Under the pieces are notes generated by a model. That model did no database searches and had not been told where the DNA came from. It was given only the letters and a program-made list of their open reading frames with translations. From Curvibacter sp. PD_MW3 (GTDB taxonomy: Bacteria; Pseudomonadota; Gammaproteobacteria; Burkholderiales; Burkholderiaceae_C), in NCBI GenBank assembly GCA_002633085.1, contig NSIV01000002.1, positions 231,602 to 295,601 of the forward strand: a stretch of DNA of 64,000 nucleotides, written 5' to 3'. Of this stretch, positions 1,522 to 13,964 are shown piece by piece (positions within the stretch are counted from its first letter, which is position 1; each line of letters starts with the position of its first letter). A program made the position numbers and the translations under genes.

Positions 1522-3585
<2,064 letters not shown>

Positions 3586-3611
3586 ATCTCAACACATCAG
3601 GGAGAAGTCAG

Positions 3612-5456
3612 GTGGAATATAAATTCTTTGAAATTGAAAACTTCCGAGGAATCCAAAAACTCCGGCTTGACCTTGATGCAACCCCAAAATCACGATGCTA
3701 CGCCCTGGTAGGACTTAACGAGTCTGGGAAAACCACAGTACTGGAAGCAATAAATCATTTCTCGTACAAGAACGAAACGCTTGACCCACTTCAGATCCCT
3801 GGCTACTCGATCAAGGATCTGCACACCCTAATACCAATCGCGCAACGAGCGAACTTCAACGGCAGCATTAAGTGCCGCCTGGGTCTCGAACTTGACGACT
3901 CGGACGTCTCTGAAATCAGCAAGTTCCTCGTCAAAGAACGCAAGTTCAAGTCCGCCGAGATCGGCAAAGAACTAACGATCGAACACACCCTTGTGTTTAA
4001 GGACTCTAAGAATGTGCCCTCCCTGAACCGCATCATGTGGATATGGACGAAGAAAGGATTGCGGCACGGGAAACGGAAATTTGAATACGTCTCAGGTGAT
4101 GATTGGGTAGAGCTTGCCAAGTTCACTCGCAAGCTAGTTCCGAGCATCCTGTATTTCCCAACTTTCTTATTTGACTTTCCCGACAAGATCTACCTCGAAG
4201 ACGGTGAAGGAGTCGATGAAAAATCGAAGTTCTATCGTCAGGTACTTCAAGATATTCTCGACGCAACAAACACAGGCGCCGACCTGAAGACCCACGTTCT
4301 AGACAGAGCGAAGTCCGGCGATCCTGGGGACAAGAAGAACCTTGACAGCCTGCTGCTTGAGATGGGCCGTAATGTCACGCAGACAGTCTTTGCTGCGTGG
4401 ACGAAGACTTTCAAAACCTCCATATCACAAAGGAATGTTCGATTTATCTTCGACATTGATTCAGGTGGTCGAGTCTACATACAGCTTTTGCTCGAGGACC
4501 TAGATGGTTTCTATCTGCTGAACGAGCGATCACTTGGCTTCCGTTGGTTCTTTGTCTTCCTTCTCTTTACCCACTATCGAGGCTTTCGACAGGGCTCAAG
4601 CAAGAACGTTCTTTTTCTCCTCGATGAACCCGCCTCGAATTTGCATGCATCCGCGCAAGCGCAGCTCCTAAATTCGTTTGATGTAATCAGTCAGCGATGC
4701 ATGATTCTCTACACGACTCACAGCCACCACATGATTGATCCACGCCATCTCGACGCAACATATGTGGTGAGAAATGAAGGATTAGCGTACGACTCGACAG
4801 ACGACGGCTACAGTGCCAAGCGAACCAACATAACTGCCGCCAGATACCGAAAATTTGCAGCCACTCATCCTGATCAGACCAACTATTACAAACCTGTACT
4901 CGACGTTCTCGACTATCAGCCAAGCCATCTTGAAATGGTGCCGCAAGTCGTCATGATCGAAGGAAAAACCGACTTCTATTTGCTCAAATACTTCAGCGAT
5001 GTCGTCCTAGAAACATCATCAGCCAAGAAAAGGAATTTTCTACCTGGCACTGGCGCCGGCAATCTTGATCAGTCTATTCGCCTATATCTTGGTTGGGGAA
5101 GAGAGTTCATTGCCCTTCTCGATGGCGACAATGAAGGCAAAAAACAAAAGGGTCGCTATGACGAAGAATTTGGATTGCTTTGTTCGTCACGAACATTTAC
5201 TCTGGACGATGCGTCGTCCACATGGAAAGGTAAAGCGCTTGAGTCGTTAGTTTCAACAGATGACCGCGTACTTATACAAAAGCATTCGTATCCAGACACA
5301 ACGAAGTATCAAAAGAACCATTTTCACAGAGCGATTCAGGAGGCATTAATGAATCGCTATGTAATTCCAATTTCCCAAGATACTTGCGCTAACTTTGTCC
5401 AGCTTTTTCAGTTTATCGATTCGAAGCTAGCAGAGTTCTCCCAAAAATCGTCATGA
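3612..5456 (+). CDS. OLD-family-like ATP-dependent nuclease (AAA/ABC ATPase plus TOPRIM-like region)
   Basis: Walker A GLNESGKTT, signature-like LNERSLGFRW, Walker B NVLFLLDEP, TTHSHHMID, TOPRIM-like VVMIEGKTDFYLL and LLDGDNEG; GTG start preceded by GGGAGAA; AT-richer than neighbours. Confidence 0.8.
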   Translation: MEYKFFEIENFRGIQKLRLDLDATPKSRCYALVGLNESGKTTVLEAINHFSYKNETLDPLQIPGYSIKDLHTLIPIAQRANFNGSIKCRLGLELDDSDVSEISKFLVKERKFKSAEIGKELTIEHTLVFKDSKNVPSLNRIMWIWTKKGLRHGKRKFEYVSGDDWVELAKFTRKLVPSILYFPTFLFDFPDKIYLEDGEGVDEKSKFYRQVLQDILDATNTGADLKTHVLDRAKSGDPGDKKNLDSLLLEMGRNVTQTVFAAWTKTFKTSISQRNVRFIFDIDSGGRVYIQLLLEDLDGFYLLNERSLGFRWFFVFLLFTHYRGFRQGSSKNVLFLLDEPASNLHASAQAQLLNSFDVISQRCMILYTTHSHHMIDPRHLDATYVVRNEGLAYDSTDDGYSAKRTNITAARYRKFAATHPDQTNYYKPVLDVLDYQPSHLEMVPQVVMIEGKTDFYLLKYFSDVVLETSSAKKRNFLPGTGAGNLDQSIRLYLGWGREFIALLDGDNEGKKQKGRYDEEFGLLCSSRTFTLDDASSTWKGKALESLVSTDDRVLIQKHSYPDTTKYQKNHFHRAIQEALMNRYVIPISQDTCANFVQLFQFIDSKLAEFSQKSS

Positions 5457-7089: not shown

Positions 7090-8259
7090 GTGCAACTCGA
7101 TCCCACCACCCTGATATTCATCAATATCGCCGACCTGTTGGCGATGTCACTGGCCTTGCCCCTGGTCATGGGGCTCAATCTGAGCCGCGCTGCCAGCCAT
7201 GTTCGCACCTCACTCATGCTCAAGGCCGGGGCCTGGGTGCTGTTGGCGCTCACCACACGCCTGGCGGGGCAGTGGTCCGAACCGGTGCTGGCCACGCTGG
7301 CCCTTGCACTGATGTCGCTGAGCCATGTGCTGATCTTTCGTGCCTTGAGCCTGTGGCTGGGGCCGCGCCCCATGGGCCGGCTGCTGGTGGTGCTGGCCGT
7401 GGTCACGCCGATCGGCTTTGCGCTGAGCTTTCACAACTACCCGGTGCGCGTGGGCTGGATCAGCCTGACGCTGACCGGGCAGTTGTTGATCCAGGCACGG
7501 GCAACGCTGCTGCCCGCGTCCGACAGCCATAGCCGCGGCGGCTGGCGCTACCTGCTGTTCGGCTGCCTGTTCATGATGGCTGTGCTGATGTTCTTCCGCG
7601 GCGTCTTTGGTGCTTTTCTCCCGGAGCTCAGCCCGAACTTCACCACCCCGTCGCCCATCATCGTGCTGACGCTGGTAGCGGCCAATGTCGCACTGGTGCT
7701 GGGCAATATCGCCTTGCTGGCGGCCTGGCGCGAGGAAGCCCAGCAGCAGTTGCGCACGCTGGTGGTCACAGACACGCTCACGGGCCTGCTCAACCGCAAC
7801 GGCTGGGCCGAACAGGCAAGCCAGGCGCTGCGTTACGCGCAACGCCACGGGTTTCCGCTCTCGCTGCTGATGTTCGACCTGGACCACTTCAAACGCATCA
7901 ACGACACCCACGGCCATGAAACCGGCGATGTGGCACTGGCGTTTTTTGGCAACCTGCTCAGGAACAGCCTGCGCGCGGGCGACGTGAACGCCCGCCTGGG
8001 CGGTGAAGAGTTTTGCGTGCTGCTGGTGCACGCCGACACGGCGGCGGCGCAGGCTTTCGACCAGCGCCTGCGCGCCGAACTGGCCCAATCCGCGCCGCAG
8101 GCCATTCCCTGCACCATCGACTTCAGCACCGGCCACGCCCTGTTCAGCGGCAAGGGCGAGACGCTGGAGTCACTCATGGCCCGTGCCGACACGGCGCTCT
8201 ACCGCGCCAAGAACGCGGGCCGCGGCCAACTGGTCACAGCCGAAACGCCGGCGGGCTGA
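7090..8259 (+). CDS. Membrane GGDEF diguanylate cyclase (copy 1)
   Basis: N-terminal TM helices; DTLTGLLNRNG, FDLDHFKRINDTHGHETGD, RAGDVNARLGGEEF (GGEEF with RxxD I-site); GTG start. Confidence 0.92.
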   Translation: MQLDPTTLIFINIADLLAMSLALPLVMGLNLSRAASHVRTSLMLKAGAWVLLALTTRLAGQWSEPVLATLALALMSLSHVLIFRALSLWLGPRPMGRLLVVLAVVTPIGFALSFHNYPVRVGWISLTLTGQLLIQARATLLPASDSHSRGGWRYLLFGCLFMMAVLMFFRGVFGAFLPELSPNFTTPSPIIVLTLVAANVALVLGNIALLAAWREEAQQQLRTLVVTDTLTGLLNRNGWAEQASQALRYAQRHGFPLSLLMFDLDHFKRINDTHGHETGDVALAFFGNLLRNSLRAGDVNARLGGEEFCVLLVHADTAAAQAFDQRLRAELAQSAPQAIPCTIDFSTGHALFSGKGETLESLMARADTALYRAKNAGRGQLVTAETPAG

Positions 8260-8562: not shown

Positions 8563-9735
8563 GTGCAGATCGATCCCACTTCGCTCATCATCGTCAACGT
8601 TGCCAACCTGCTGGTCATGGCCACGGCGCTGCCGTTCATCATGGGCCAAGGCCTGAGCCCGGCGGCCAGCCATGCGCGGCACTCGCTGTTCCTCAATGCC
8701 GCGGCCTGGATCTGCCTGCTGGCTTCCAGCCTCTGGTACGGGCAGGCACCCGACCTCATTCTTTCCACCTTGGCCATGGCCTTCATCTGCGCCAGCGAAT
8801 GGATGGTGTACCGCGCGCTGGAAGGCTGGCTGGGCCCACGCCCGCTGCGCAGCCTGCTGCGCGTTCTGGTGTGGATCATGCCGGTGGGTTATGCCTTGAG
8901 TTTCTCCAGCTACCCGGTGCGCGTGGGCTGGGCCAACCTGGTGCTGGCGGCGCAGCTGCTCATTGTGGCGCGCGCCTGCCTCTACCCCAGCAGCCGCGAC
9001 TTCGGCCGCCGCGCCTGGCGCTACCCGCTGTTCGGCTGCCTGGCGGTGATGGCGGGCTTCACCGCGGCGCGCGGCATCCTGGGGGCGTGGTTCACCGAGC
9101 TGTACCCCTTCTTCCGTGCGCCCACGCCGGTGAACATTGCGGCGCTGATCGGTGCCAACACGTCACTGGTGCTGGGCACAATTGCCATCCTGGCCGCCTG
9201 GCGCGAGGAGGCCGAGCGCCAACTGCACAAGCTGGCCAGCACCGACACGCTGACCGGCCTGTTCAACCGCCACGGCTGGACGATGCAGACGCGCCACCCG
9301 CTGCGCCAGGCGCAGCGCCACGGGCACCCGCTGTCGCTGCTGATGCTGGACGTGGACCACTTCAAGCGCATCAACGACACGCACGGCCACGAGACCGGCG
9401 ACGCAGCGCTGCAGTTCATCGGCCAGCTGCTGCAGCGCTGCCAGCGCGCGGGCGACGTGAGCGCGCGCGTGGGCGGCGAGGAGTTCTGCGTGCTGCTGCC
9501 CTACACCGACGCCACCGCGGCGCAGGCCTTCGACGCGCGGCTGCGCGCCGAGCTGATGGCCAGCGCAAGTGCTGCCGGCCTGCCCTGCGCGCTGGACTTC
9601 AGCTGCGGCCACGCGTTGTACCGCACCGCGGGCGAGACGCTGGAGTCGCTGATGGCACGTGCCGACGCCGCGCTGTACCGCGCCAAGAACAGCGGCCGCG
9701 GCCGGTTGGTGCTGTACGAGCCGCTGGCCGGCTGA
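8563..9735 (+). CDS. Membrane GGDEF diguanylate cyclase (copy 2)
   Basis: Full-length paralog of 7090..8259; RAGDVSARVGGEEF; GTG start. Confidence 0.92.
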   Translation: MQIDPTSLIIVNVANLLVMATALPFIMGQGLSPAASHARHSLFLNAAAWICLLASSLWYGQAPDLILSTLAMAFICASEWMVYRALEGWLGPRPLRSLLRVLVWIMPVGYALSFSSYPVRVGWANLVLAAQLLIVARACLYPSSRDFGRRAWRYPLFGCLAVMAGFTAARGILGAWFTELYPFFRAPTPVNIAALIGANTSLVLGTIAILAAWREEAERQLHKLASTDTLTGLFNRHGWTMQTRHPLRQAQRHGHPLSLLMLDVDHFKRINDTHGHETGDAALQFIGQLLQRCQRAGDVSARVGGEEFCVLLPYTDATAAQAFDARLRAELMASASAAGLPCALDFSCGHALYRTAGETLESLMARADAALYRAKNSGRGRLVLYEPLAG

Positions 9736-11027: not shown

Positions 11028-11741
11028 TCATCGGTTTTTTTCCACCGGGTTGGCGGTCAGCCAGTTAGCCGGGTAGGAGCGCATGAACTCCCGCGCCTTC
11101 TCGGGGCGGGCGCTCAGCCAGGCGTCGTAGGCGCCCTCGTTCAGAATAGCCACCATGCGCTTTTCACTGCCGGGCTGCTGGTAGCGGTGCATCAGGGCAT
11201 GGCTGTTCGCGTTCACCGTGAGCAGGGTGTAGCTGGTGATGACCTCACCGTCGGCCCCTTCCCAACGTTCCCACAAACCGGCCACGCCCATGGGTTTGCC
11301 GTCCACCCGGGCAATGCGCGTGGGCACAGCCTTGCCGCTGCGCCAGTCGTCTTCCAGAAACGCCATCATCGGCACAATGCAGCGCTGTCCGGCCAGCCAG
11401 GCATCGCGGAAGTTGTTGGAGGTGGTGACGATTTCCGAGCGGGCATTGACCAGCTTGGTGGAACGCAGCTTGGCGTCCGACGCCGACTTGACCCAGCGCG
11501 GCACCAGGCCGAACTGCCCGGCCACCAGTTCACGCTTTAGCACACGCGGCGGTGCATCAGCGGCGGCCTCTGCTTCTGCCGCCGCTTCAGCCTCGGCCGG
11601 GGCCGAGGCCGCACTCAAGCGGATGAACACACCCGGCTGGCGCGGCCACACCTGGCGGCCCACGGGTTCACTGGGGGCTTCCACATGGAAGGCGTCAGGG
11701 TAAAGGGAGGCGGTTTGCACGCTCTCGTAATGGGAACTCAT
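11028..11741 (-). CDS. SOS response-associated peptidase (SRAP/YedK/HMCES)-family protein with atypical catalytic residues
   Basis: KLVNARSEIV, CIVPMMAFLEDDWRSGKAVPTRI, GVAGLWERW, YTLLTVNANSHALM; N-terminus MSSHYESV instead of MCxxYE. Confidence 0.85.
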   Translation of the reverse strand: MSSHYESVQTASLYPDAFHVEAPSEPVGRQVWPRQPGVFIRLSAASAPAEAEAAAEAEAAADAPPRVLKRELVAGQFGLVPRWVKSASDAKLRSTKLVNARSEIVTTSNNFRDAWLAGQRCIVPMMAFLEDDWRSGKAVPTRIARVDGKPMGVAGLWERWEGADGEVITSYTLLTVNANSHALMHRYQQPGSEKRMVAILNEGAYDAWLSARPEKAREFMRSYPANWLTANPVEKNR

Positions 11742-11858
11742 GCGGCGATGCTAGCGCAATGTCTCTGCGGCCCTGCCCCGCAGCGTTTGACACTTGCCGG
11801 CATCCGTCGCATGCTTGGCACCCAATACGATTTCAGCAAGCCATCCAGGGAGGCTGTG

Positions 11859-13964
11859 ATGAAGATACTTCAGCAATGGTGTGCTCGGCTGGTCGCCGCG
11901 GTCATGGTGCTCGCGTGCCCGATGGGCGTCATCGCCCAACCCTATCCCGGCAAACCCCTGCTTCTGGTTGTTCCCTACGCTGCAGGCGGGGTTACCGACG
12001 GCTTGGCACGCCTGGTGGCCCAGCAGCTTGCGACGCGGCTAGGCCAAGCGGTGACGGTTGAGAACAAACCCGGTGCCATGGGGCAAGTCGGTTTCGAACA
12101 GGTGGCCAAGTCAGCGCCTGATGGCTACACCCTGGTGCTGGGCAACATTGGCATCTTCCCAGGCACAGCAGGCCAGGCCACGCCCCTGGTCGACCTGCAG
12201 CGAGACTTCGTTCCAGTCTCGCTGCTGGCGCAGATGCCTGTTGTGCTCATCGTTGATTCGTCTGTTCCGGCCAACTCGGTCAAGGAGCTGCTGGATTACG
12301 CCGCCGCCCGGCCCGGCCAGGTTTCCTACGGCACTTCGGAAACCGGCAGCTCAAGCCATCGGGCCGGTGAACAGTTCAGACAAGACACGAAAACGACGAT
12401 GACGCGGGCGCCCTTCCGCACGGATGCAGCCACACTCACCGCACTGGCATCCGACAACGTCAAGGTGGCCTTTGCCACCTTGGATGGCGTGGCCTTCTTC
12501 AAACCCAAAGAAAAAATTCGCGCCCTGGCGGTGACAGGCAACCATCGCTCGCCCCTGGCGCCCGGCGTTCCCACGTTCGCAGAAGCAGGCATCAAGGGGG
12601 TTGATGCCTTGTCCCAGTACGCGGTGCTGCTGCCGCGCGGCACGCCACAGGACATCGTGGCAACCCTGAACAAGGAACTCAAGGCGATCGTCCAGTCACC
12701 CGAGTTCCAGGGCCAGATTGCTGACTATGGCATTGAAACGGTTGGCTCCAGCCCCCAGGAACTGGCCGCCATCCTGGAAACGTCGCGAGCTTCGGCTCAA
12801 TGGGCCGCGGTGGTGAAAGATGGCGCAGAGCCTTCTGCAGATCAGCCTAAAGCTGCTCCGGCTACTCCGGTGGTCACGGCGCCGATTGTCATCCCGCCCC
12901 CGCCAAAGCCCGCAGCCATGCCCATACCTTCACCCGTTCCCGCGCAACCGATTCAAGTTGAGTCCTACAAGGTGGTCAAAGTCTTCTTTGGCACGGATCG
13001 GAAGCTGGTCCCCTCGGCCAGTTCACCACGCGACTTCTTTGCATCAGATCGGGGCGGTGCCATCAGCTACGGCAACTGCGAAGTCAGCATTCCGCGGGAT
13101 CACAAGATTGGAGAACTGGAAACACCATCGTTTCTTCGGAGGTATTTCGAAAACCCGGCCAAGCATGTCGTTCTGCTGCGGCTCAACCTGCGCAGCAGAA
13201 ACGAGTTCATGAGCGATCTCAACAGCACGATTGCAGAGAAGAAGACCAACTCGGCGCTGGTTTTCGTCCACGGCTACAACAACACATTCGAGGATGCCGC
13301 CCGACGCACCGCACAGATTGCACACGACATCGAATTCCCGGGGGTTCCCATGTTCTACAGCTGGCCCTCGAATGGCGCCACGCTCTCTTACGTCACGGAT
13401 GGCAACGATGCGGAGCAGGCCATCATGTACCTCAAGGCGTTTCTCAAGGACTTGGCGGTCAATTCGAAGTTCACCTCCATCACGCTGCTGGCGCACAGCA
13501 TGGGGAACCGGGTACTGACGCAGGCCTTCGCCGCACTGAAAAACGACATCAGCGCCACGAAGTTACGGGTGTTCAAGGAAATCATCCTCGCTGCGCCTGA
13601 CATTGACGCTGACGTGTTCAAGAACAATATTGCACCCGCACTTGTGGCGAGCAAAGCCTCGGTCACTTTGTATGCGTCATCTCGCGATGGGGCATTGGCG
13701 GCTGCCAAGAAAATCAATGGTGGCCCCCGGGCTGGCGATTCGGAGGGCGGGCTTGTTGTCGTCAAAGGCATCGAGACCATCGATGCCACCAACGTCGACA
13801 CCAATCTTTTCTGGGGCCTGGGTCATGCTTATGTTGCGGACAGCCGCAACATCCTGTCCGATCTGTCTTATCTCATCGTCAAGGGCCTATCCGCCCCCGC
13901 CAGGTACGGACTGGAGACGGTGCCAGACCCCAGCGGCACGCCATACTGGAAATTCAGGAACTAG
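11859..13964 (+). CDS. Fusion: Bug/TctC-like periplasmic substrate-binding domain + DUF900-like alpha/beta hydrolase
   Basis: Signal peptide then YPGKPLLLVVPYAAGGVTDGLARLVAQQL...GYTLVLGNIG (Bug family); Pro-rich linker; KVFFGTDRKLV, ALVFVHGYNNTFEDAARRTAQI, LLAHSMGNRVL (DUF900); RBS CCAGGGAGG. Confidence 0.85.
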   Translation: MKILQQWCARLVAAVMVLACPMGVIAQPYPGKPLLLVVPYAAGGVTDGLARLVAQQLATRLGQAVTVENKPGAMGQVGFEQVAKSAPDGYTLVLGNIGIFPGTAGQATPLVDLQRDFVPVSLLAQMPVVLIVDSSVPANSVKELLDYAAARPGQVSYGTSETGSSSHRAGEQFRQDTKTTMTRAPFRTDAATLTALASDNVKVAFATLDGVAFFKPKEKIRALAVTGNHRSPLAPGVPTFAEAGIKGVDALSQYAVLLPRGTPQDIVATLNKELKAIVQSPEFQGQIADYGIETVGSSPQELAAILETSRASAQWAAVVKDGAEPSADQPKAAPATPVVTAPIVIPPPPKPAAMPIPSPVPAQPIQVESYKVVKVFFGTDRKLVPSASSPRDFFASDRGGAISYGNCEVSIPRDHKIGELETPSFLRRYFENPAKHVVLLRLNLRSRNEFMSDLNSTIAEKKTNSALVFVHGYNNTFEDAARRTAQIAHDIEFPGVPMFYSWPSNGATLSYVTDGNDAEQAIMYLKAFLKDLAVNSKFTSITLLAHSMGNRVLTQAFAALKNDISATKLRVFKEIILAAPDIDADVFKNNIAPALVASKASVTLYASSRDGALAAAKKINGGPRAGDSEGGLVVVKGIETIDATNVDTNLFWGLGHAYVADSRNILSDLSYLIVKGLSAPARYGLETVPDPSGTPYWKFRN

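Follow-up and report, generated by a model that had tools for sequence, protein, structure and literature searches.

Positions 11859-13964 of the window (the whole 64,000-nucleotide stretch of Curvibacter sp. PD_MW3 DNA that was analysed) hold one unbroken open reading frame on the forward strand, which runs from an ATG at 11859 to a TAG at 13962-13964 and encodes 701 amino acids. A sequence-only reading had described a single frame with a ribosome-binding site and a signal peptide that encodes a complete Bug (TctC) solute-binding domain, a Pro/Ala-rich linker and a DUF900 hydrolase, and all of these elements were recovered, the first two by inspection and the rest from Pfam and the sequence:

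11846-11852, + strand: Shine-Dalgarno-like AGGGAGG, about 6 nt 5' of the ATG (read from sequence)
11859-11936, + strand: Bug-like signal peptide, residues 1-26, with GVIA before and QPYP after the predicted cleavage point (sequence inspection)
11940-12824, + strand: TctC/Bug solute-binding domain, residues 28-322 (Pfam, PDB sequence matches, AlphaFold, Foldseek)
12825-12974, + strand: Pro/Ala-rich linker, residues 323-372 (sequence; C. delicatus alignment)
12975-13961, + strand: DUF900 alpha/beta hydrolase, residues 373-701, Pfam core 448-666 (Pfam, AlphaFold)
13497-13499, + strand: Ser547, predicted nucleophile in AHSMG (invariant in a 61-sequence alignment)
13686-13688, + strand: Asp610, predicted acid after strand 229-234 of the hydrolase model (invariant; AlphaFold model)
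13824-13826, + strand: His656, predicted catalytic His in GLGHAY (invariant in a 61-sequence alignment)

Pfam matches TctC at residues 50-319 (176.8 bits against a cut-off of 27, E value 8.6 × 10−52) and DUF900 at residues 448-666 (157.9 bits against a cut-off of 20.5, E value 3.6 × 10−46), both far above chance level, with no third domain in the 701-residue protein, and a search of NCBIfam assigned the fusion protein to no family. Folded separately with AlphaFold, a check that the earlier reading had suggested, both halves gave confident models (pLDDT 88 for the Bug half and 94 for the hydrolase). The frame stays open 5' of 11859, with an earlier ATG at 11685; the signal peptide, the Shine-Dalgarno-like sequence and the orthologue described below favour the start at 11859. 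Cys20 lies within the signal peptide (VLAC; AIAC in the orthologue), where inspection suggests that a weak lipobox is possible.

Conservation and distribution of the fusion

Curvibacter delicatus NBRC 14919 (NZ_BCWP01000004.1) encodes the same fusion in 696 amino acids with the linker kept, the two proteins being 88% identical over the whole length, 88% in the Bug half, 78% in the linker (45 of 50 positions aligned) and 92% in the hydrolase. The fusion is therefore seen in two independent assemblies from two species (genome G015 in our set is the same genome as the C. delicatus one). Relatives in which a stop separates the halves had been named as a sign of misassembly or frame error, and this is not what the clade holds, as C. 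delicatus has the intact fusion. That such an error joined two genes, as the rarity of an architecture found in two genomes only might suggest, is ruled out for all practical purposes by the presence of the same fusion, linker included, in a separate assembly of another species.

Between the two orthologues, dN/dS (NG86) comes to about 0.16 over the whole gene, about 0.25 over the Bug half and about 0.08 over the hydrolase, with dN 0.017 against dS 0.24 in Bug-half codons 201-280; the ratios of the two halves indicate that purifying selection keeps both. Synonymous divergence reaches 0.54 in the hydrolase half but only 0.25 in the Bug half, a difference that we do not interpret since flanking genes span 0.23-0.50.

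Two of the 26 genomes of the genus carry the fusion and the other 24 lack it. We used the hydrolase half as query in samples at family, order, class and phylum level and in a scan of the collection (one genome per species, with loci retrieved for the better matches only), and scanned the reading frames of the retrieved loci with a TctC profile built in this analysis. Among more than 150 DUF900 reading frames from several phyla, none beyond the two Curvibacter genomes has TctC in frame, and a distant second fusion may exist elsewhere. Among plasmid records, none matches as much as 80% of the full-length protein, and an exact search of viral contigs for the linker codons found nothing. A phage origin was rejected, the fusion protein having no match in phage records (one IMG/VR contig encodes a lipoprotein relative), as were a defence system (PADLOC gave the protein no match) and a recent parent Bug, the unfused Bugs of 251 family genomes being ~43% identical at best. 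The literature searched contains no description of a Bug/TctC and DUF900 fusion, which agrees with the earlier reading, whose author was aware of none.

In both species, with names read from the sequence, the fusion gene is preceded by two GGDEF-type genes and one flavodoxin-like gene and followed by a YeeE/YedE-like pair and a DUF2855-like gene. Between the YedK-like gene and the YeeE-like one, a sister genome (G270) has NYN-like and DUF938-like genes instead, and genome G257 has DUF938-like and GGDEF-type genes. The adjoining GGDEF-type proteins of the window (7090-8259 and 8563-9735) are paralogous, carry a GGEEF motif and are paired in C. delicatus too. GC content is 0.57 in the hydrolase part, 0.63 in the Bug part and 0.63-0.70 in the flanking genes measured, a difference compatible with a foreign origin but no proof of one.

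The DUF900 hydrolase and its relatives

DUF900 has been called a family of unknown function, and a Rhizobium member has a low-probability lipoprotein signal (PMC11878206); we found no characterised member in the literature searched. Hydrolase positions 175, 238 and 284 (Ser547, Asp610 and His656 of the fusion) hold a Ser, an Asp and a His that are invariant in 61 aligned sequences and are predicted to form the catalytic triad, the roles of Asp and His being assigned from position and invariance. A PDB sequence search with this half gave no match, and Foldseek with its confident alpha/beta-hydrolase model retrieved generic alpha/beta hydrolases only (best E value 6 × 10−5, TM-scores up to about 0.5). 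The earlier proposal of an exported protein that joins a complete Bug domain to a predicted serine hydrolase is supported, with export and catalysis as inferences.

The nearest relatives of the hydrolase (45-54% identical) are stand-alone proteins of exported type, often lipoproteins; a strict lipobox pattern alone picks out 58 of 130 DUF900 relatives, and among the closest ones from proteobacteria are lipoproteins whose short linkers are of Pro/Ala or similar type. Because so many carry a lipoprotein-type signal, the envelope is probably where a large part of the family works. Stand-alone proteins from Shewanella sp. HN-41 (L069), a Cellvibrionaceae genome (L071) and Klebsiella variicola (NZ_CP026016.1) share the triad and ~50-54% identity with the hydrolase over its full length, and the two chromosomal lipoproteins (L069 and L071) also resemble the fusion in having an exported N-terminus with a linker. 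They differ in having no Bug domain and, at the N-terminus, a lipoprotein signal or another region.

The Klebsiella gene (86813-87901, L246; 53.8% identical) is flanked by an integrase and an M15 peptidase on a conjugative plasmid, and by eye no operon partner is conserved with DUF900 among 11 loci, so that none hints at a pathway; this plasmid copy and the lack of conserved neighbourhoods are in keeping with horizontal spread. The hydrolase tree leaves the sister group unsettled (support 0.075 and 0.135). A lipoprotein relative, 49% identical, is encoded at 3001-3966 of an IMG/VR contig predicted to be viral (L245).

A congener (G256) encodes a DUF900 protein at a locus that differs from the fusion site (L163 on contig C1, 4148-6487, − strand), in a 780-residue frame with a lipoprotein signal, a very long Ala-Pro repeat, an OmpA-like region and DUF900. 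As in the fusion, a Pro/Ala linker and a C-terminal DUF900 follow an envelope module, but the hydrolase is just 41% identical and the module is OmpA-like by eye.

The Bug half and the proposed role

The Bug half is modelled as an open TphC/Bug27-like protein, with Foldseek E values of 1 × 10−30 to TBP and TphC. It has the fold and the GG-xxD in common with TphC (7ndr), Bug27 (2qpq) and BugD (2f5x) at ~31-33% identity (TphC 33%); whereas those are single-domain proteins, here the Bug is joined to an enzyme and has Thr at the TphC G178 position. The P-F/Y-x-A-G-G-x-x-D motif is present as PYAAGGVTD (residues 39-47), with the GG-xxD clamp kept. In both fused proteins Thr188 replaces the pocket glycine (TphC G178, PYKG loop), which is a conserved rather than family-defining feature of Bugs; the position is Gly in 42 and Ser in 2 of the 44 other Bugs of this genome. 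In the window's protein Asp189 comes next, and both residues adjoin the carboxylate-clamping loop, and a further loop (residues ~100-112) is divergent from characterised Bugs. Measured against conserved Bug positions, this half differs at 11 of 54 columns, and at 6 of 29 when compared with the other Bugs of its genome, among which unfused ones differ at 0-8. Given these differences, G188T included, it may fail to bind an ordinary ligand, and binding may even be lost. Contacts of TphC with its ligand include P86, Q150, T155 and T242/A242 (PMC8556258); mapped with an offset of +10 taken from alignments, the P86/Q150/T155/T242 signature becomes N96/S160/S165/S252 (S165 being P in C. delicatus), replacements that indicate that this is not a terephthalate site.

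The fusion is real and lineage-restricted, and puts a new module at the N-terminus of an envelope hydrolase of known type. The most economical reading takes the hydrolase as the part that is conserved and sees the Bug domain as the new module, since constraint is stronger on the hydrolase and its relatives use different N-terminal parts to get to the envelope. On balance, we lean towards a serine hydrolase of the envelope in which a Bug module, serving to place the enzyme or to collect ligand, has taken over from the usual anchor. The protein would be exported by Sec to the periplasm, with the Bug/TctC domain standing in for the N-terminal lipoprotein signal and linker (sometimes an OmpA-like module) of its relatives; the C-terminal domain would cleave an ester, amide or thioester bond via Ser547-Asp610-His656, while the Bug domain on its flexible linker would localise the enzyme or gather a small ligand, substrate or product, and product might pass to a TctA/TctB transporter encoded elsewhere. 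We infer the anchor replacement from the architecture, and the Bug half may contribute envelope placement, a gathered ligand or mere export.

In a tripartite tricarboxylate transporter system the binding protein is encoded with TctA/TctB, which the fusion is not, both TctA genes lying on other contigs (C4 and C5). As the genome has 47 TctC genes and only 2 TctA genes (and 1 DUF900), a Bug without a dedicated transporter is normal here.

Two other accounts of the Bug half are each unlikely. In one, it captures an ester- or amide-linked substrate by its carboxylate and passes the substrate to the hydrolase. Characterised Bugs do bind carboxylates (PMC8556258, PMC11452294), both halves are conserved and confidently modelled, and among the closest Bug structures are TphC and TBP, which bind terephthalate and so deal with a product of ester hydrolysis. 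However, the altered TphC signature leaves no terephthalate site, G188T and D189 sit beside the clamping loop, and TphC, at 33% identity, is a poor guide to the ligand; a carboxylate-ester substrate, taken from the domain names, is speculation. In the other, the Bug half is just a carrier for secretion and solubility or a degenerate passenger and the hydrolase acts by itself, in line with the raised divergence at conserved Bug positions, the unusual pocket residues and a dN/dS higher than that of the hydrolase, but purifying selection persists, codons 201-280 included, and the GG-xxD motif is intact.

DUF900 has no known function, and most Bug proteins are orphans. Their natural fusion hints directly, and in a way open to test, that certain Bugs act together with envelope hydrolases, and it provides a construct whose ligand screens and substrate screens can inform each other. 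It is quite improbable that the fusion represents a new type of periplasmic enzyme, in which a binding protein of the tripartite tricarboxylate transporter type would supply or sense the substrate of a covalently attached hydrolase and so couple cleavage outside the cytoplasm to uptake.

A locus in genome G1426 (L225, − strand) has a separate TctC gene (3072-3953) directly upstream of a DUF900 gene (1492-2853), an arrangement that may be due to chance.
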